64,000 nucleotides of DNA. Origin: Axinella damicornis (taxonomy: Eukaryota > Porifera > Demospongiae > Axinellida > Axinellidae). This document shows positions 4,601-45,197 of this stretch, piece after piece (the stretch's first letter is position 1; each line of letters starts with the position of its first letter). The stretch spans positions 4,167,707 to 4,231,706 of the forward strand of contig OZ007517.1 in assembly GCA_963931865.1 (NCBI GenBank), written 5' to 3'. Made by a program: the position numbers and the translations under genes. The notes under the pieces are model-generated. The model ran no database searches and was not told the origin of the DNA. It was given only the letters and a program-made list of their open reading frames with translations.

Positions 4601-7600
4601 TTTATAGCCTGCAAGTAGAGCCTCAAAAGTGATTATGGGTTTTGCTTCATGAATCCACTTACCAAGACCAGGACAATGAATACTCACTCATCCATACACA
4701 GTGTGCTGACTCAACCATCCCAAGTGCATACTAACTATATACACACACTCAGCTCTAGCTAGCTAGACAGAAAATTGCTGAAAGAAGGTGTTGCCCACCT
4801 GGCTCTGACTAAACATCAAGCCCAGACACAACCATACTGCTTTTCACTGTTTGGGTGAACATTAATTTCCACCTCACCTCCTTACTCACACAGAACCTCC
4901 AACGATATTGACGCACTTAAGCTGAAAGTCTCATAGCTAACAGGTTTTGCAGTCATAAAGGGTAAAAGTAAAACTGTTGCCATGTCCTCTGCATGATTCT
5001 AGCTGATACCAAGTCGTGCTGAGACACATCAAGTCTTTTTTTAGACTCACTTGGTCATTCTGTACTGGGAGCTTATAGTTTGTGAGTGTACTAAATCTAT
5101 TCAAGTTGTTCCCTTGTTGTTGCAGGTAAGACTGGAGCGCATGTGTTTGAAGCACCTTCTGCTGGGCTTGAGGTGAGTTTTACCTGAGCTGTGTGTACAG
5201 TAGTATTGTTCCACTGAACTGGAATGTTCCTAAGAGTTAACTCGACCTCGATCCGACAGGCTCGAGTGGTTTTATAACCATCAAGTCAATAGGCTGTGTA
5301 GAGATAGAATGGACACACGATTAATGTACAATGGTCCTACCTACATGTACCTCAATAACACATCCAGATTTGAACTGTAGCTTCTGACAGATGGCTGCAA
5401 TACAAGTACATGTAGAACTAGAGGTGCTCAGCAGAGTACGTACCCCATGCGCGACTTTTTAACTGCCGATCATTCATGCATTTTAATACAGCTTGCACGA
5501 TGAGATAGCTAGGGCCTACCGATGCAGAATAAGATACCGTAAGTTGTGGCAGTAATGTTAGAAACAGGGTGTGCTCAAGTTGTATAAATGCTAATCGTCG
5601 GCATTCACGCAACTTTTTTCAGCCTCTCGAGTGGATCTCTGGTCTGTGAGTTATGTAGACACTAGTAATTTCTGAATTCTGACACTTCTATTCTGAAATA
5701 AGCCTTCGACAAGGCCTTCAGTGCTCAAACCACTTGGACAGACAGACTGACTGACAGACAAACCGATCACTCTACCCTCTGCTGCGCATGCACACGGGGT
5801 AACAGCTCCAAATAGTGCCTTCTTTTTGCTCAATAACATGATTGTGTCACTGCTAGACATTTTCACACTTTCCAGCTGGCTCTTAGGAGTCGTGGCTTCT
5901 ATAGCGTGGGTGTGCTTCATATGCTTGATGTACCTCTCTGCTAGCAGTTGTCCCATCTTTGTATATATAGCTACATGTACATGTCACACAGAATGCTCGA
6001 TTGGTCTCCTACATTAGCCTCATTCCCAGGCCTTCTACACCTCCAGTTTTAATTTGATCGCTTGCAGTATGCAAAATCAGAGCGGGAAGGCCTGGGAAAT
6101 CTTCACACGTGATCCTCGGCACGGCTTACATCACGGATCCTAGACACAATGGCTTATTTACATTCCCATCCTCAGCTACAGTGAAGCTACGTAGTAAACT
6201 GAACATGATCAGAGAAGAAGTAGGTCCAACATAATAATGCATATATATCCAGGTGTGAAGCAATTAAAACTGCTGAGGGATAGCTGCATGTGATACAAGG
6301 GGTGAAACTCCAAAGAGTGCCATCTTTTTGCCCACGAGAAGATTGTGTCATAGCTGGGCATTTTCACGCTTTTCACTCGGCAGCCCTTTGGAATCATGGC
6401 TTTTAGCCTGGGTATGCTTTATACCCTCGCTATAGCCCTCAGTTGGTGCTTTCCCATCTTCGTAGCTAGCGCAGAATGCAAAATCGGTCTCGTAAATGAC
6501 TTTGACTGTTGAGATGAGCATGACAACAGATGGCAGTCGTGCTGCGGATCGCGTGCAAATATTCTCCAGGACTTCCCCCTCTGTTTTTGTGTAGAAGGCC
6601 TGGGAACGAGGCTACTCCTGCATGACTTGGCTATTGAGAGGAGGTGTGACAACATAACGGTATCTGTGCTGCAGATTGTAAAATTTCCCATGCATGCCTT
6701 CTCACCTATATAGTGCGAGTCAGTAGTGAAAAATGGTCGGTGCATGAAGTGATCTCTTATTTACCAGGATGCACATGGGAGTCCAGTGGACAATCGTATG
6801 TGGTACAGTGGGGTAGGATATGTCTGTGAGCCATCTCGTCTGGTATATATGGGATTCCCAGGATTTTGAAGGCAAATATAGACAAGAGGTACTGAGCCAC
6901 TGAGTTAGTGCTTGTGCAGGCAACTTGACAGCAGTCTGAGTCTCATCAAACGGTGGTACCTTAAGACTATTCTTTGCTGGTATTAATTTTAGCGAATTTT
7001 TGAGAATTTGAAAATCGCTAAATTTTAAACCTGCAAACAATAGTATTAGCAGCATGTGACGTCACATACGTGTGCATTAATTGGAGTGAGTCATAAGCTA
7101 GCCACCTACGAAGTGATCTGCGAAGGTAGTTAGCTGTATAGTAAGAATCAGAGGCTATCTATATATATATATATACGAGCAAGACCCGAGCTAGACATCA
7201 TTCTGAAAAGTGAGTTTGTCCTACCTGTTGCACCAGAGGACTGAGCCGCGTGGTTGCCTCTTGAACGGATTAGTTGCCAGCAGCTCTGGTTAGTTAAAAC
7301 GCTAAAATTAATACCCGTCAAATCTGCTGCATGCCCAATTCGCTAAAATTAGTACCCGCAAATAATAGTGACCTTAAGGTACTTGGAAGGGAGTGTTCGG
7401 AGGAGTGGAACACTTGCTTTCCTTGCTGTGCTGACCATGAAGTCACACATCTCAGTTTTGTTGACCATTTTCTTCAGTTGCTCAACAAAGTTATGTTGGG
7501 CAGGCCTCGCTACCCAACCTCAACTGTGAGCAGCTTTATCTTGTAGCCTGTGTTTCGATGAGTGGAGAGGAGCTCCAAGTGCTTGTTCCTTCCTGCCAGG

Positions 7601-10600
7601 GTCACCCAGCCTCATGGAAGAGGGTGTCAAAACACACGGTCAGTTCCACTAGACAGACTGATTGGTTTGTGTCGTTCCACCAGACAACGTCAGACCTGGG
7701 GTCAGTGGGCACAATGTGGGAAGGAAAGCTGTAGCGCGGTCAGCCAGGTCAATGGTGCTTGTGAATTCTGGCACTGTCTGTGGGTACGTCCTCGACAGTG
7801 CACCTACCATCGCTGAGAAGCATTGCAGCCACTGCAGAATGTCCGTCACGGATCCGTCCTTGCGCCGCAGCCAGGACAAAATGTTCTTGGATGTCTCCTC
7901 ATTCAACCACGTCTCTGGCATCATCTCCCTCATCTCCACAAATTCCAACAGGACGATTTTCTGGGCCAGCTTCTCTGGGACAGGCAGGAGCCCTTCAGCC
8001 ATAAACACCACTGCTGGGACAACTGCTGTACTGCAGGTGTGGCAAACTGAGACAACAGAATATACTGAGCTAGTAGGCTAATACTGGTCTAGTAATCCAG
8101 TAAGCAAACAGCGAGTACACAAACAAAGAACTAGTACAACACAACAAGTTACAATAGATTGCTTATGGTACGAGATGAAAATGATATACGAAGTATGCAC
8201 AGGAATAGTTACTAGACTTGAATGACCTCATCTTCTTCTGCTTGAGTGCAGTGACGCAAGTATGGCAGTAGGCCAGGTCATTTGCTTAGTCTAGTGCAAC
8301 CAGATGATTAAACCAAGTCCGCTGGAAGGGATGCCACATGACATTCTTTTACCGTAGGCTTGATTTGAAAAAGCTAATCTGGCAGACGGCTGGTGAGGAG
8401 TCTGGACAACGAGGCATGAGCAGCTGGCCCTTTTGAACTGCATGCATGTACTACAGTATACATTCATCAATTCAGTGCCTCCACGTGGGTGCCACACCCC
8501 CCGACTGTATACAGCTGGTGGCTCAAGCCTATGTGTACGGCCAAAACCGTACTAGCCTGCGCCGGCCCTGGTATCCTGGTGTCTGAGAGTCTCCTTTTCT
8601 ACCTACCAGCCTCCTCATTCTCAATGGTGTCTCTGTCTTCATCTTCCTTGCCAATTCCCCCTATCGCCACACTCTACTCATCCTTTGTGCTGTCCCATCC
8701 TGCTTACATTTTCCTTATAGAGACTTCAGGTGTTTTTCTCCGAACTTTGTGAGCACTTTGGTGCCCTCCCATTCAGCACAAAGCATCCACCACCTTGTTA
8801 TTTTTCCACACGGTGCTGGATTCTAGGATTGTTTCCAAAGTAACGGATCCTTTCGTCGTTTAAGGACACAAAGCTCCTTGCAATCAGGACACCATCTCAT
8901 ACGTAGTATACAATGTTGTTCCCAGGTTGCTTTATAGGCAGCTCGAGAGTGCGCAGATGTATGGCATCACACACTGCCAACATTGTTGTTTGCAGGTTTG
9001 AAATTTAGCAGTTCACTAAAAATTAGTGCCCCCAAATAATAGTGCCCTAAAGGCTCATGTTGGTGTAGAGGAGGGCAGTTTGTGAGGTCTCTCTGGGTTA
9101 CTTGACTGAGGTCTCTCTGGGTTGGCTTGACTGGACTGAAGAAAAGCTACGTATGTGCAGACAGTGAATTTCACCAAAGCTATGACAGGCTGTCACTGTC
9201 TCTGTCCAAAGTTGCTCCCCATTCTTTTGAGTCATGTTCCTCACTTCTGAGAGGTCAAAGGTCGCATGCGTAATTTGTTTGCATGCTTACCTGTTTGCAT
9301 GCTTACCTGTTTGCATGCTTATTGAGCTGATCTGTTATAGCCATGGTAACCAGTATTGATCAATGTAAGTTGTCCTTTTGACTAGACTCATCCATAAGTC
9401 CGTAGTCCAGTCCAGAGTCCAGAGTGCTGCTTTTGCAGGGACCCCCATGTTATGATCCTTGTTGACTTTCAGGAGCAATTAAATGCGCGAGCTTGCAAGG
9501 AATGAGCTAAATTGATTGCTATGCCTTTGTAGTGCACTCCTCCTGTTGAGGTGGATTATTTGACAGCATAAACGAACAGATAATTTCAGATAAGAAAGAC
9601 AGCAGTGAAGCCTTTTGCATTGTCCACATGCAGTTCTCGGGCTCGGGTTGCATACAATGCATACGCCATTGACTGCAATCATAACACACATCACCATGTC
9701 ATGGTGATGTGTGTTATGATTGCAGTCAACAACGACCCGTAAAAGAAGCAAGCTAGGCCTCACTTGTTCCTTGGACGGCAAGCTCACTTAAACAATGGCC
9801 TCACATGCCATTCTTTCAAACCTTTCGTTATTCATCCACCCCTCCCGTTTCTTATAGCTACGTAGGAACAAATTTGTAGCAGTATTTATATGGTGCCTTC
9901 ATGTGCACCAATTGTTGTTGATTGACATTCTTACTTTTCAGGTTGTTTCTCAGAATCTTTTGACAGCTTCATGACACTGGGTAGCAACCAGGTACGTGAT
10001 GTAAGTGGGTACCAGTGGGCTGGTTAGCCTGCCTCTCAGTGTGGTGTGCATCCATTACAGTTTACAGCCAACAGGTAATATCATACGTGCCGATGATTAA
10101 ACTGTGGGGGTGTGACATCGAAGCCAGACATTGGCACTAAGGAGTCGTCATTCAAAATCTCTCCTATGTACGTCTGCAGAGCTAGCTATAAGCTCCGAAA
10201 GTCGGTGTCCGGAAGTATCAATTTCTCACACATGACAAGTGCATCGAATGAAATTATATGGTGAAACATATAGACCAGACTTGTAGACACTCCTTCTTGT
10301 TATGGGCTCCTGTTACTGGAGAGTGTTATTAATTACTTGGGATACGTGTGGATTACAGGAGATTGCTGCATGGAGATTACTTGGCGGATCTCCAGAGAAT
10401 CTGTGTGCCTCAGTCATCACATATATTTTCGTAGCAGAAAACAAATGGTCACCAGATTTTCAAGTTTGTAACAGTAAATGATAGATGTTATTGAGTCTCT
10501 TGACCCCATTGCCTTACCTCTCCTGTAGATAGAGAGGGTGCTAAGCCAGGGTGACTGTCCAAACCTTTCTGAGAGTGCTGTTATTGCCACCATTCAGAAT

Positions 10601-36540: not shown

Positions 36541-37564
36541 AAAAACTGGGTCAGTCAGGCCTGAGCAAAATAACATTATATTGGTATGGGCTTCTTTCTG
36601 AAGCACACCAGTAAACACAACCGATTATTGATGAAAATTGTGTATTGCATGTTAAAGCCACTTCAAAACAAATGCAGTTTGCAAACACTTTACAAAAACC
36701 ACGTAATTAATGGATGGCCAGTGCCAGTGTAAACAGCAATCACAATTGAAACATACACTTGTTGGGACCCCAGACTCCAGTCACTGCATGCCACAAGTGG
36801 CTTATGGAGATGACTACCATTTGAACTGCAAGGCATGCTTCAAGTGGCATTCTTGTGCATGAACATTCCTGGAAGAGGCCGGTAAATCTCAGGCATGCAG
36901 CAAAGAAGTCAGAATAATGGAGGACGATAAAGGAGTGACTGTCAGCCCAGGCGATATTTTTTTTTTTGCAGGAACCAATTTTAGTGCAATTTAAGGGGAA
37001 ATCAAATTTTGAACCCACATTTGCAGTTTAATTGAGATAGCTACATGCCGTAAGCTAGCAGCCTGGGAGTGAGGCTATAGCTTGCACTACGAGCTGGTGG
37101 ATGCAATCAGAGTGTACTCACGAGGTGAGAGTAAAACCTACAGGTATCATTCTGAAAAGTGAGTTCACCCTATCTGTTTCAGTAGCCTACCAGCAGAGCA
37201 GTTGCCACACCACATGGGCCAAATCCAACTGTGTTATACACCTTGCCTTAGGACAGGTGTTCACCTGTTGCGGTGCAATAGTTTTGATCCCTCCCCTATC
37301 AATGATGAGGTGCTGTATAATGTCTCTGTGTTCCCCCACCTCCACCCGTGGGCTGCTGCCAGCATCAGTGGAGCATATCCAGCCGCTGTCAGTGATAGTG
37401 AGAATAGGTTACTATGTAGATTCTAAGTAGTACTGCAGTTTTCCTTAACGTTGCAAAGTGGAAACGGTAAATGCATAACGGTTACACAATAATTCAATCA
37501 GCAAATTTGTGCATAAAACCGGCAAGTCGATCTGAGAGCAGCGACCAAACTCTGTACGTAGCTA
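36541..37564. other. Intergenic, no gene seen
   Basis: GTGGATGCAATCAGAGTGT occurs at 37097-37115 and again at 43335-43353, on the two sides of the element that follows. Otherwise nothing recognised. Confidence 0.4.
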
Positions 37565-37915
37565 CACTACGAAAAAGTGGGTGGTTTCCACGAAAGTTGT
37601 AGCGTGTAAACCTATGAGGAAACCTGATTTCAAGTTTCCTATGAAGTTTACAATGCAGAATTACTGTGTGTCACATTAAGTTTCCATTATGTATATAATC
37701 ATGGTATTTATACCAAGTTTCTATTGATTTCCTTTGAAGGAAAGGTTAAGTATGATTCAAGTTTCTTTGGAATGAGAAACATCATGTACTAAAAAAGGTT
37801 TCCAACGAGAAAACATGACACATCCTTTGAGTTTCCATGGAGTTAGAATTACGTATATTTCTCTATGTATCCTTATCGAGAAACAAATGAAACTTTAGAT
37901 TCCAGAATATAATCC

Positions 37916-40900
37916 GTGGTTGCTGGGCATGCGCACATTCAGCATGCTGGACTGAACTGGAGGAAAGCGAGAAATGATGGATGTATAAATGACTATTCCC
38001 AGAGGATACATGATGAAATCAGAAATCTCTACGTGGATGACTCACCTCCAACATGCTCTGACGAGATGGAGCAGGAAATTGAACGTGTATCTACACTGCT
38101 AAAGCAGGCAGGAACTGACACGATCCCAGCCTTTAACCATCGCAAGAAACGTAAACCATACATCCATGATGCAAACCTAAAGATGAAATGTAATACTAGC
38201 AAGAGTGCATGGAGGCAATGGAAAGCCTCAGGTGGCTCTCGGTCTGGTGCAGCTTTCGACACTATGAAGCAGGCAAAGAAAGATGTGAAGGAGTATGTCA
38301 AGCTGTGCAGGGCCCGTGAAGAGAGGAAGAGGATCCAGAAACAGGACCAACTGTTTAAGAACCGAGACCCTGCCCGCTTCCATATCCCCAGACGGAAAGC
38401 CTCTTGTAGGAAGTTGGTAGTGGATGGGAATGCAGTCACCTGCAAAGAGGATCTTCTGGACTGTTGGAAAGTGCACTTCTCTGAGCTTACCAAATCAAAA
38501 CTGGACGCAAATAGTGCTGAAAGTCGAGTTCAATCAGACCTACATGCCCGGTCGTTTGGCCACAATGATCAAGTCCTTGACACACCCTTCACAATTGAGG
38601 AGATTGAGAGAGCTGTGAAAAAGTTGAAGGTTGGGAAGGGTGGGGGTTTTGATGGTCTTCAGCCTGAGCACATCAAGTATGGTGGGCACTCACTCTTCAT
38701 CTGGCTACAACGTATCTTCAATGGCATCATCGTTCTGGAAGACATTCCCCCTAGCTTGAAGGTGGGAGTCACCATCCCGGTATTCAAGGGCAAAGGACGC
38801 GATCCTCTGAACCCAAACAACTATCGTGGCATAACCTTGACATCAGTCATTGCGAAATGCCTGGAGACTGCCATTCTAAGCAGGCTGAGTCCTATCCTTC
38901 AAGAAAAGGGTTTCCCTCATTGTGCACAAACAGCATACAGACACGACATCTCCTGTGCTGATGCTATCTTCTCAACCCAAGAAGCCATTCTCAAATACAT
39001 ACGCGAGGGTGAGAAACCAACACTCTGCTTTTTTGACCTCGAAAAAGCATTTGATTCCGTCGAATACACAACTCTTCTAAAGCACCTGGCAGACATTGGA
39101 ATCAACGGGAAGTGCTGGCGTTTGATTAAAAATTGGTATACCAACTCAATGAGTGTCATTAAGCTTGACTACTCCTTTTCCAGCAGTTTTCCAGTACACC
39201 GTGGAGTTAACCCTTGGTCTGCGTTCATTAATATTCATAACTTCCGCTCACGCGACTCGTGATCAATTTATTGCCTAAGTTACACATCTCTAAGGCTTCT
39301 CGCCGTTTAACTTACAATCGCCGAGTAGACTTCAAGTTCGAAGGCTAAGAAATGTCGAAGTATAGTTCATTTGTCTGCTAAGGGCGTGATTGAGCCCCGA
39401 CTATCGTTATATGGCTGCTAGGCCGAGTTATACTCAAGCGCTCACCTTGGAACTCTCCCTGTTGTTGTGCTGTCGATGTCTGCCCTCCAGCGGGTGAGTT
39501 ACTGGTGTTGATAGGTAGTTCAATGATGCCTCAAGCCTATACTAGGCCCTTGAGCGCTACCAATAGTGTTCCGTAGGCGAAAAAGCCTGCCTATGCTGGC
39601 AGTACACAATACGGCGACAAAACAGTGAGCGCTTACTTATCTCTCGATCGGTAGGAGGAGCTTCTGATCGACTGCTGATATCCGTAGGGTCTGCCTCTTC
39701 ATGACTGTGATTGCCATTATATTAGCAGGGTCTGCCCCGCTTCCTGTTAGCTCGACTCGCGATCTTGTCGTAAATATGCGACAGCCGCATTTTGCGCGCG
39801 TCCGCGCACGTCGCAATTGTGCGACAAACGCAGGCAGAGAGTTAAGCAGGGATCAGTCCTATCTCCAACTCTGTTCATCATTGTCATGGACTCCCTGCTA
39901 AGGCACCTGGAGGCTTCAGGCCAGAGTCTGTGCATGCATGGCCTGGACGTTGGCTCGTCTGCTCATGCTGATGACATCCGTGCTGCTAGCAACTTTACCG
40001 ATGCCACACATGTGCAAGGCAATTGCATAAAGGCCTTCTGTGCTGCCAACTCCCTCTCTCTGAATGCCAGTAAAACTGAAGCTGTCAAATTTTCCTTGGG
40101 CCCCTTTTCTCCTGATACCATCCAAGTAGCTGGCACTACCACCGACACGCAATCTCATGCTAAGTGTCTTGGAGTGTGGTGGCAGCATGACCTGAGCCCT
40201 TGCCGGTCAGTCGAAGAGAACGTGTCGAAAGCTCGCCGAGCCTTCTTTGGTCTGGGTTCCATTGGTTCATTCCAAGGCGTTCTAAACCCGCTGACTGGTC
40301 TAAGTGTGTTCGAAGTCTTTGTCATCCCCATACTACTCTATGGGTGTGAAACCTGGATACTAACACCTGCCCTCCTATTAAAATTGGAGAAACTACAGTC
40401 AGAAATTGGAAAACGTATTCTGAAACTCAGCAAATTCCACGCAGATCTTGCTCCCATAATCGGTCTACACCTTCCCTCCATCAAAGCACGTATAGCAATT
40501 CGGAAACTCCGTTTCTTAACAAAGTTACTCAAAAGTGAACAAGATGATCTTGCCTCTCGTGTTTTCCGAACTCTGTCCGCTGACAATGTGTACAGTATCA
40601 GTGTTGTTGAACAATGTAGATGGCTCCTCGAAGAACTGGGCCTTGGTTGGATTTTACAGAAATGTCTTTCTGATCCTACAGCCTCTGATACTGTTAAGGA
40701 CTTGCAGAACATCATTTTGAAGCAGGACTGGTCTCAATCCGTCGACAGTGCGAGAAATCACCCATCCCTAAAACACATTGTCTGCTCAAACTTTGTTGCT
40801 GCCAGCTGGTGCAGTCATTGGGATAGAGCACTGGACCTTGGAACCAAGGGAACTAGACTATTTCAGTGCCTTTTCTCCTCTCTGTGTCGTCCAGTCTTCG

Positions 40901-41094
40901 GTGATCGTGTTTGTCCACTATGCGAACGTGAAATACCATCACATCAAAACTACTTTGATCACCTGAACTCAGATCACTTGAACAAGGGCTATGGACCAGA
41001 AGTCCTCAGAAATACTTTAGAGAATGACAGTCAGAGCGTATTGGACTTGGCATCTTGTGTTCTGTCTTTGTACCATTGTCAATCCCCCTCCTAA
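37916..41094 (+). pseudogene. Non-LTR-type reverse transcriptase, interrupted by an insertion
   Basis: First part 37916-39210, second part 39846-41094; the frame is the same on both sides of the insert. Visible: a basic linker (NHRKKRKPYIHD), an IEEIERAVKKLKVGKGGGFDG fingers start, PVFKGKGRDPLNPNNYRGIT, motif A CFFDLEKAFDSV, motif B split by the insert (VHRGV / KQGSVLSPTLF), and motif C as SAHADDIRAAS with both Asp present. The thumb reads LPSIKARIAIRKLRFLTKLL, and near the C-terminus a CPLCEREIPSH...H zinc knuckle. About 840 codons. No endonuclease domain precedes it and there is no ATG at the 5' side, so it is 5'-truncated or begins within the element. Nearest groups would be Jockey/CR1/RTE-like RTs; clade not decided. 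Confidence 0.8.
39211..39841. mobile_element. TTAA-flanked insert within the RT frame (piggyBac-like, non-autonomous)
   Basis: TTAA at 39207-39210 and 39842-39845 (GAGTTAA shared). Ends CCCTTGGTCTGCGTT and AACGCAGGCAGAGAG are imperfect inverted repeats, with CCC right next to the TTAA as in piggyBac elements. The interior is CpG rich with ACTCGTGATC / GACTCGCGATC and no transposase. Confidence 0.8.
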
Positions 41095-41314
41095 ACCCTT
41101 ACCTTTGTACATATACTTATACAGTGTTCAGTCTGTACATGCTATCCCGAAAGGGCAATGCACATGAACCTTGATTATCAGAATGATGTCATAATCTAGT
41201 AACACGTGCACAGTTTTGGCGGGCTGCTGCGCTGGCAGATACTATTTTTTATAGCTAGCCGTTGTGAAAGTGCTGAGTTTGTCAGGCATCTTTACTTAAA
41301 TACTTCTGGTTATA

Positions 41315-42228
41315 ATGACTCAGTTGAGTCTTCGTCAGCCCAGCCTGGACATTAGCCCAGGAGCCAGTCCTCGGTCTCTCTTTGACGGGGATGAGGTAGC
41401 TGTTATCCCGCGCACTCCTCCCTGTGGCAACAGGAGTTCTTCCGTAAACCTGTTGCCGATCTTCGCAGCCAGGGAAAGGTCGCTTGAATCATCACTGTCT
41501 ACGTCTACCGAAGATTTGGCAAATGTACTTCCAGGATGGTGCGATAATTATTTGCACAGCGGAAGTAGCTCCAGCCTCTCAACTCCTTCGTCGGTGACGT
41601 CAGGACGCCACTCTAGAATGGGAAAGAGAAGGTATACACCAGCCACTACCAGCTCTTCATCAGAATCTCCTGGTTCAAGTGTTAGCAGCGCTGATAACTG
41701 CAAGTTGTTCGTAAATTATGTATAGCTGTACTGCAAGTGTGGCCACAAAGAAGCCTTTATGTAGGAAGGATATTTTTCTCTACTATAGCCATGCTCAGAG
41801 AAATCCTTAAAGAGGTCTGAGCTTCTAACAAGAAAGTTTCCGACATTGAAAAGAAGCTACAAGATCTCGAAGAAGCTGAGTGCAGTGGAAAAGTCAAGAG
41901 GAAGAAGATAGCACCATCTCCAGAAGTTAGAGTAAGTGCTTTTGTGAAAACTAATTCACTGAGTCAGGCACAGAAGGAGAGATGGGCACCGTGTGTTGTT
42001 GCCGAGATGATGAGCAGTGAGGAGAGTGATGATGAAAATGAAGAGTTTGTTGTGCGTCCTCTCCCATGGAGGAGTGACAAAGTGGACTCCCTTTACTCAA
42101 GCCTAGACATGAAGTTTAATAAGAAGCGGAGTAAGAAAAGTGCAATGATGACAATCCATCGTACAAAGGGCCTTCCATCAGATCGTTCTAGGCCATCTGG
42201 TGTTCCAGACTGGTCCCTAAAGCCCTAA
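41315..42228 (+). CDS. Ser-rich / coiled-coil accessory protein of the CACTA-like element (damaged)
   Basis: First exon from ATG 41315 (MTQLSLRQPSLDISPG...), Ser-rich, to about 41705. The second exon, from about 41790, encodes a coiled coil (KKVSDIEKKLQDLEEAE), a basic KVKRKK patch, an acidic MSSEESDDENEEFVVRPLPW segment and ends RSRPSGVPDWSLKP at 42228. An in-frame TGA at about 41818-41820 interrupts the second exon. Proteins with this acidic-then-PLPWRSDKV layout and a final PxW are, from memory, frequent in sponge and cnidarian transposons. It may bind the element's ends. Exon joint is inferred. Confidence 0.5.
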
Positions 42229-42231
42229 GTA

Positions 42232-42560
42232 TGTACCCTTGAGACTGGCCGATAATTATATCCCTTGAGACTGGCCTACCAATATCTTTGCTGCTTCACG
42301 CATTGTTTCTAGCCTGAGTGGGCTTACATCCCTTGAGACTGGCCTAAAGCCTGAGTGGGCTTACATCCCTTGAGACTGGCCTACAAATATCCTTTGCTGC
42401 TTCACGCATTGTTTCTAGCCTGAGTGGGCTTACATTTATTTTTGTTGTTTTGGTTGTTTTGCCCTTGAGACTGGCCTACAAATATCTTTTGTTGCTTCAC
42501 GCATTGTTTCTAGCCTGAGTGGGCTTACATTTATTTTTGTTGTTTTGGTTGTTTTGGTAT
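42232..42560. repeat. Tandem repeat, unit about 105 bp
   Basis: CCCTTGAGACTGGCC recurs five times, each followed by partial or full copies of TGCTTCACGCATTGTTTCTA and GCCTGAGTGGGCTTACAT. It lies just downstream of the accessory gene, probably in its 3' region. Confidence 0.9.
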
Positions 42561-43065
42561 AATTGTAGTGTGGAGTCTATTTCACATCCTGATTATGATG
42601 TTTCAATTTTCCAGTATGTTGTTTGTAGTCTGGAGTCTATTATATGATGTTTCCTTACAAGTGCCAATAAGGGTCATATCATGCAACACATGTAAGTATC
42701 TGTCCTGTCAGAATTATAGAATTCAAATCAGGTTTCCATACATCATACTCCAGATTCCTAAGCAAGGAAGTAAGGAATTCCAATCATGTTTCTATACAAG
42801 ATTCCTATACATCATACCCATTGATTCCTATGGGATACACTAAACGAATAATAGATTTCCTATTAGGTTTCCATGGAGGAATTGCATGTATTCGTCGTGT
42901 TTCCTGTGCTGGAATCATGCCGTGTTTGCGCGTATTTGTTGAAAGGAACTTCTAGATTTCTTGACATCAGAAACTCCATAATCTTGCTAAGAAACTTCAT
43001 GAATCTTGCATGTTTCAACAGATTTCATGAAACCATTTCAAACCACCCGCTTTTTCATAGTGCTA

Positions 43066-44393: not shown

Positions 44394-45197
44394 TCAGTGC
44401 TTGTGACACCTTTTGATGTGCTTCTTGAGGTAGTTGGATGTGGTGTATATCTTGCCACAGATTTCACACTTATGGGGAATCTGTTGGTGAATCCTGAAAT
44501 GCTCAGGAAGATACGATTTTTGGAATGACCTCCCACACCACTGGCACATGTATTTGGGGGGGCTGACCAGGAATGGTTTATCTCCAGTGTGTATCCTAAG
44601 GTGACGTCTAAGATGGCCACTGCGTCCAAAGCACTTGCGACAGAACTCACACTGGAATGGCTTCTCTCCTGTGTGGACTCTGTGGTGTGATTGGCGATGT
44701 GCATATTGGGTGAACCTCTTGGGGCAGAACTCGCACTGGAATGGTTTTTCTCCTGTGTGTATCCTATGGTGACGTATAAGATGGCTACTTCGTCCAAAGC
44801 ACTTGTGACAGAACTCACACTGGAATGGCTTCTCTCCTGCGTGGACTCTGTGGAGGGATTGTAGATTTGCATACTGGGTGAACATCTTCCTACTGCTGAC
44901 TGTGCAACAAGAAAGTCATGACAATTCAGTCCAGGACACACACAATGGTAGCGGTACTTACTTTGGTTTGGGTTCTGCTGTGCCACCTTCAATTGTCAAT
45001 GAAGGATGTGATCTTTTCCGTTTGTTGCTCTTTTCCGAACAACCAATCACTCGTATGCTCTCTTCTATACCTGTAGCTTCGCTTGAACTGGAAATGGAAA
45101 CAGCTCTTTGGCCACGCTCCTTGCCATTGGCCTGCTTCTTGCTTTTGGTACTGCGTTGGGGAACTTGTGAAGTTTCACCAGTTCCACCATGACCCAT
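44394..45197 (-). CDS. C2H2 zinc-finger protein, two exons, about 243 aa
   Basis: Exon 1 is 45197-44962 (ATG 45197, MGHGGTGETSQVPQR, Lys/Ser-rich, basic NKRKRS patch) with a GTAAGT donor. Exon 2 is 44889-44394 with the acceptor CAGTAG; the phases join (2+1). The second exon encodes Krueppel-type fingers with TGEKPF linkers: [30 protein letters not shown]..., FQCEFCRKCF..., then, after a linker lost from its paralogue, YMCQWCGRSF and HKCEICGKIY with the C-terminal HIKRCHKH. The start of exon 2 has the end of a finger (YANLQSLHRVHAGEKPF) without its CxxC, so a finger was lost. Nuclear DNA-binding protein, targets unknown. The paralogue at 56.6-58.4 kb has a longer array. Confidence in the exact acceptor is moderate. 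Confidence 0.75.

Follow-up and report, generated by a model that had tools for sequence, protein, structure and literature searches.

A probable non-autonomous CACTA transposon with a nested, 5′-truncated LINE in the genome of Axinella damicornis

Overview

The unit at positions 37565-43062 of the window, that is, the whole 64,000-nucleotide stretch of Axinella damicornis DNA that was analysed (C13:4167707-4231706), is very probably (about 0.94) a non-autonomous CACTA (EnSpm) transposon with a nested, 5′-truncated LINE and a third, high-copy repeat in the reverse transcriptase (RT) gene of that LINE. The unit is an assembly of ordinary nested transposable elements, and the RT is a passenger that stands outside the design of the CACTA element. 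The original prediction offered two alternatives for an RT between CACTA-like ends. The LINE boundaries and the layout of sibling elements support the first, in which a LINE inserted into a CACTA element at the place expected for the transposase. The second, a new architecture in which an element bounded by terminal inverted repeats has its own RT, is not supported, as the RT ends at the 3′ end proper to its LINE family. All own-genome searches covered 226 Mb in 120 contigs, and the counts from DNA searches are lower bounds.

Termini and subterminal regions

Regarding the termini, the 23-bp inverted ends first noticed in the sequence are present at 37565-37587 (plus strand, CACTACGAAAAAGTGGGTGGTTT) and 43040-43062 (minus strand). 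The two arms are 91% (21/23) complementary and lie 5,452 nt apart, and such an arm pair is expected 0.0009 times per 7.5 kb under a uniform base model. They are terminal inverted repeats of the CACTA/CACTG type, which are also found in the sibling L075 (CACTGGAAAAAA). The letters CTA stand on both outer sides as claimed (37562-37564 and 43063-43065) and form a possible 3-bp target site duplication, which, taken alone, has a 1 in 64 probability of arising by chance and may be chance.

The search of the host assembly for copies with these ends, suggested with the original prediction, returned one identical 23-bp end, at L019 (C13:4316693, about 106 kb off; 26 bp identical in BLAST), and no second two-ended copy with the same RT junctions. 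Beyond its end, L019 extends at 83-86% identity to the right end region of the window, and this end therefore belongs to a dispersed repeat. The exact 13-bp word CACTAYGAAAAAG has 14 genome matches, two of which are the unit's own ends; because the reversed control word gives 22, the 13-bp word alone is no marker of copies. Nine of the 12 other places were inspected (L001-L008 and L019); the other three lie on C14 (two) and C18 (one). Among twelve loci (L001-L008 and L017-L020), five or fewer mismatches over the 23 bp were found only at L004 (four), L006 (five) and L019 (none). A search with the end word for the opposite ends of L017, L018 and L019 found none; L017 has one end word with two mismatches, at 1356 and in the other orientation.

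The subterminal repeat arrays of the original prediction are borne out. The motif GTTTCY/RGAAAC occurs nine times in the left subterminal region (37588-37942) and seven times in the right one (42561-43039), with shuffle means of 0.45 and 0.49, and 0 of 1000 shuffles reach either count for this word, which was picked after inspection. Subterminal repeats of this kind belong to the CACTA (EnSpm) features found in the window copy. The same motif is concentrated near the ends of L046 (11 in 678 bp vs 6 in 5.4 kb elsewhere), L044 (5 in 728 bp vs 10 in 7.5 kb) and L075 (4 and 3 near the two ends vs 10 in 5.7 kb), and L045 shows no enrichment there (1 in 585 bp near the end vs 9 in 4.8 kb). In DNA searches, the left region is found in this copy only, and the bases immediately ahead of 37943 could be filler belonging to the 5′ junction of the LINE; DNA related to the right region exists at C6:14.6M, C13:3.95M and C13:4.32M. 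The right region is preceded by a tandem array with units of about 37 and 95 bp (42241-42560). Next to the element, the window has a tandem 84/168-bp repeat (44570-44888) whose units look, by eye, like C2H2 zinc fingers.

The partner gene and the missing transposase

The Ser-rich/coiled-coil protein with a PLPWRSDKV segment is most plausibly encoded by a second gene that belongs to the CACTA element itself, here called the partner gene. Its conserved C-terminal domain (SSEES...PLPWRSDKV) is encoded at 41944-42228 on the plus strand and is supported by genome matches, an alignment of siblings (A1) and public relatives. The Ser-rich ORF at 41315-41725 on the same strand is probably the first part of the gene, since its place, strand and Ser-rich composition are, by eye, as in L046 and L075; the Ser-rich part of L046 gives no scored match to the window, and 41180-41760 is found once in the genome by DNA search. 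An in-frame stop separates the two parts and may sit in an intron. The domain has 22 genome matches: the window's own, two that share a C6 locus, and 19 more, hence 20 other loci. Upstream of the C6 partner gene lies a 196-aa ORF (L017:7078-7668) that by eye presumably resembles a portion of a HECT-type domain and could be either cargo or a neighbour.

A public search with the partner domain yields 266 proteins at E≤0.001, including the window's own, and among the 120 relatives listed, many are tagged PF26792. The domain itself has no match over the cut-off in the Pfam set used, which is one without PF26792. DUF4616 was considered as its identity and rejected, as the match (E 0.046) lies below the curated cut-off and three of nine aligned members match at E≤1.

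Partner genes are accompanied by CACTA-type termini elsewhere in the genome. In 22 fetched partner stretches, words like CACTACGAAAAAG (≤2 mismatches) occur nine times, and seven of the nine (in L021, which is the window, L024, L029, L030, L031, L038 and L040) are oriented as expected and sit 575-825 bp downstream of the partner gene. L029-L031 are near-identical copies, 96-99.6% alike. The remaining two words lie off the expected place (L029 at 238 and L033 at 176). The homology shared by L046 and L026 begins at TACACAGGAAAAAA, and L034/L075 ends in CACTGGAAAAAA.

The absence of a transposase from the unit, as originally claimed, was confirmed by tblastn with the transposase pieces of L075 and L046 and two fragments from L045, which gave nothing at E≤1 inside the element and, in the rest of the window, two weak hits at E 0.058 and 0.076. 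A Transposase_21 (tnp2) gene is thus absent from the window copy and present in siblings with the partner gene; therefore, the window copy is classed only as a non-autonomous derivative. Among 23 genome matches of Transposase_21, four have one of the 20 other partner loci within 4 kb, in each case in divergent orientation (C12:7.707M, C4:69k, C8:4.378M and C14:7.666M), and 19 have no hit of the partner-domain search nearby. The highest-ranking Transposase_21 hits are at C12:10221813, C12:9995617 and C13:3992894. L075 has both ends (CACTGGAAAAAA), at 1755 and 8398 with 6.6 kb between them. Its minus strand contains transposase pieces from 5097 to 2263 in several frames (Transposase_21, E 2e-14), and its plus strand contains the partner ORFs at 5167-6027 (Ser-rich) and 7638-7967 (PLPWRANQV, with the core PLPWRA). 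L046 matches Transposase_21 at E 3.9e-17, and in L045 the N- and C-terminal pieces of the transposase match, divergent to the partner gene. Order and strand in the window are as in L075, and the LINE occupies the place of the transposase.

In alignment A1, the partner domains of the transposase-bearing siblings are 34-45% identical. Transposase-bearing copies without the RT, which the original prediction named as a refuting result, exist in related families that share the partner gene. No copy that combines a transposase with exactly the ends of the window was found in the host genome.

The nested LINE

The RT belongs to a 5′-truncated LINE at 37943-41174 on the plus strand, which closes with the family's own 3′ end CATGAACCTTGA. 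Its frame is open in the 5′ part (37943-39210, without a stop in frame 0; the ORF 37916-39262 matches RVT_1 at E 5.9e-13) and has one stop in the 3′ part (39842-41094, frame 2, where the ORF ends; RVT_1 E 2.7e-11 for the ORF 39817-41094). The original prediction noted an intact motif A and both motif C Asp in the RT; the RT as a whole is not intact, as a 631-bp insert (39211-39841) parts its two halves.

The 3′ boundary was established by a search of the own-genome DNA with 40700-41330, which finds 24 other matches at 20 loci. Sixteen of these matches (at 16 of the 20 loci) end at query 475-476, which corresponds to window 41174-41175, and eight end earlier; none of the 24 runs on past 41174-41175 into CACTA DNA. 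Behind the common 3′ end, 15 of the 16 copies have a further CCTTGA or ACCTTGA unit, and the window LINE has a single CCTTGA at its end, like L060. The flanks of the copies mostly differ, and the DNA behind L059, L060 and L062 looks alike. A common 3′ end combined with differing 5′ starts is found at many loci.

Regarding the 5′ boundary, the junction region has one other hit, the locus of L049, also fetched as L073, where the match begins at 37943. L073 contains an uninterrupted RT frame of 695 aa that is 98% identical, and this locus matches the window only from 37943; relative to the window, L073 has a deletion located before the RT frame. The frame of L073 before the RT matches no Pfam family, and we take it, by eye from a motif, to resemble the end of an AP-type endonuclease. 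Against the PDB, the RT of L073 finds R2 and LINE-1 ORF2 proteins (best seven, E 2.2e-18 to 1.2e-17), and the RVT_1 domain of the window is hence related to LINE/R2 enzymes. Each side of the window LINE has CAGAAT followed by ATAATC, with a 6-bp difference between the two sides; as a target-site duplication this pattern is not clean, and it may be chance.

These boundaries bear on the idea of a transposon lineage bounded by terminal inverted repeats in which the RT is a working gene. The position of the RT between the ends and beside the partner gene would suit such a lineage, but the RT is 5′-truncated, stops at the 3′ end of its LINE family and is split by an insert, and tblastn finds it in no other partner locus (with flanks of 1.5 kb, and longer ones for L017, L043-L046 and L075), which makes this explanation extremely improbable. 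Against this alternative, the original prediction named RT copies elsewhere with LINE-type flanks and no CACTA ends as a refuting result, and such copies exist, with the LINE-type 3′ end and tail, in the roughly 1.5 kb of flank seen. In 93.7 kb of LINE loci (most with 1.5 kb on each side), the closest end-like words are three with two mismatches. The transposase has no match there, and the partner domain has a single weak one (28 aa in L055, E 0.002).

Alternatively, the LINE fragment could be cargo that the CACTA element captured and carried along when it moved. Both LINE junctions do lie inside the element, whose outer ends are kept; against this, the fragment shares its stop at the LINE 3′ end with 16 of the 24 other matches, as target-primed reverse transcription gives, and no second copy across either junction (37942/37943 and 41174/41175) appears in the own-genome DNA searches. 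Capture as cargo is accordingly very unlikely, and insertion of the LINE into the CACTA element is preferred. Identity between the window LINE and its best copies reaches 99.9%, vs 77-88% for the CACTA part relative to C6; this contrast fits a later arrival of the LINE as judged from sequence identity, though the two are not clocked alike. DIRS-like elements likewise have an RT between inverted repeats, together with a tyrosine recombinase. A DIRS-like identity was rejected, as a Pfam scan of four ORFs yields no recombinase and the boundaries of the RT are those of a LINE.

Short copies of the LINE 3′ end, about 140 bp long, start at window 41034 in L054-L057 and L059-L061 and at 41036 in L058. 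In the seven that start at 41034, a shared GAACTTTGAACTTGAACTT-like stretch precedes the LINE part, a hint of a SINE-like relative that uses the 3′ end of the LINE.

The third insertion

The 631-bp insert in the RT gene (39211-39841) is flanked by a 7-bp duplication, GAGTTAA, at 39204-39210 and 39842-39848. At L049 and L051 the site is empty and GAGTTAA is present once. A search with the insert gives 41 matches, namely its own, 39 that are near full-length at 96-98% identity, and one fragment, with 40 of 198 candidates scored. This repeat family is homogeneous, and its ends are weakly inverted.

Relation to known elements

The host elements share CAC ends, Transposase_21 (in the siblings), a second protein beside the transposase and subterminal repeats with the CACTA/EnSpm superfamily, as represented by the account of SmTRC1 (PMC1636069), and the window copy differs in being without a transposase. 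According to the same account, Spm is one alternatively spliced unit and a SmTRC1 clone has two ORFs in tandem, in contrast to the divergent genes of the siblings here, and 2-bp duplications flank 7 of 14 SmTRC1 copies, in contrast to the CTA at the window (PMC1636069). With non-LTR LINE retrotransposons (R2 and LINE-1 ORF2), the nested element shares the RVT_1 RT, 5′ truncation, a fixed 3′ end and a short-repeat tail; unlike them, the window copy lacks the endonuclease region and is interrupted. Coe1 of beet, as its description states, likewise brings a Tnp2-type transposase together with RT remnants in a composite stretch (PMC2426827). In Coe1, however, the transposase gene sits, with an RT pseudogene, between putative LTRs, whereas in the window the LINE lies within CACTA ends (PMC2426827). 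The titles and abstract openings of the entries listed in literature searches mention neither the partner protein nor an element bounded by terminal inverted repeats with its own RT.

Proposed history of the unit

In the proposed history, a CACTA copy would have lost its transposase half, while at least the partner domain stayed in place together with the ends and the subterminal repeats. This loss probably occurred by deletion, before or together with the LINE insertion. The 5′-truncated LINE would have entered the transposase half via target-primed reverse transcription, and the third, high-copy repeat would later have inserted into its RT gene. The CACTA element itself would have moved by cut and paste, with a transposase supplied in trans. 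A variant of this history, in which the LINE insertion itself deleted the transposase rather than landing in an already transposase-less copy, would agree with the lack of a clean target-site duplication and of a transposase remnant at E≤1 within the element. Non-autonomous copies with internal deletions are common in CACTA families, which counts against the variant, and no close pre-insertion copy is available for comparison; we consider the variant rather unlikely.

Implications

The partner protein (Ser-rich, coiled-coil, SSEES...PLPWRSxKVD) can tentatively be proposed as a TNPA-like second CACTA transposition protein, encoded divergently to the transposase and binding the GTTTCC subterminal repeats as plant TNPA does, a role that is possible rather than probable. 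The proposal draws on the conservation of the domain, on the four loci where it is paired with a transposase and on the repeats close to the ends. According to the account of Spm in PMC1636069, transposition requires both tnpA and tnpD, and TNPD stabilises the binding of TNPA to DNA. For the study of mobile elements, a false lead is removed, as no DNA transposon with its own RT is demonstrated here. The CACTA layout of this host consists of a divergent transposase and partner gene, and partner genes without a transposase can be examined as CACTA remains. If the TNPA-like reading is true, the public relatives of the partner protein would form a broad, uncharacterised family that marks CACTA elements outside this host.
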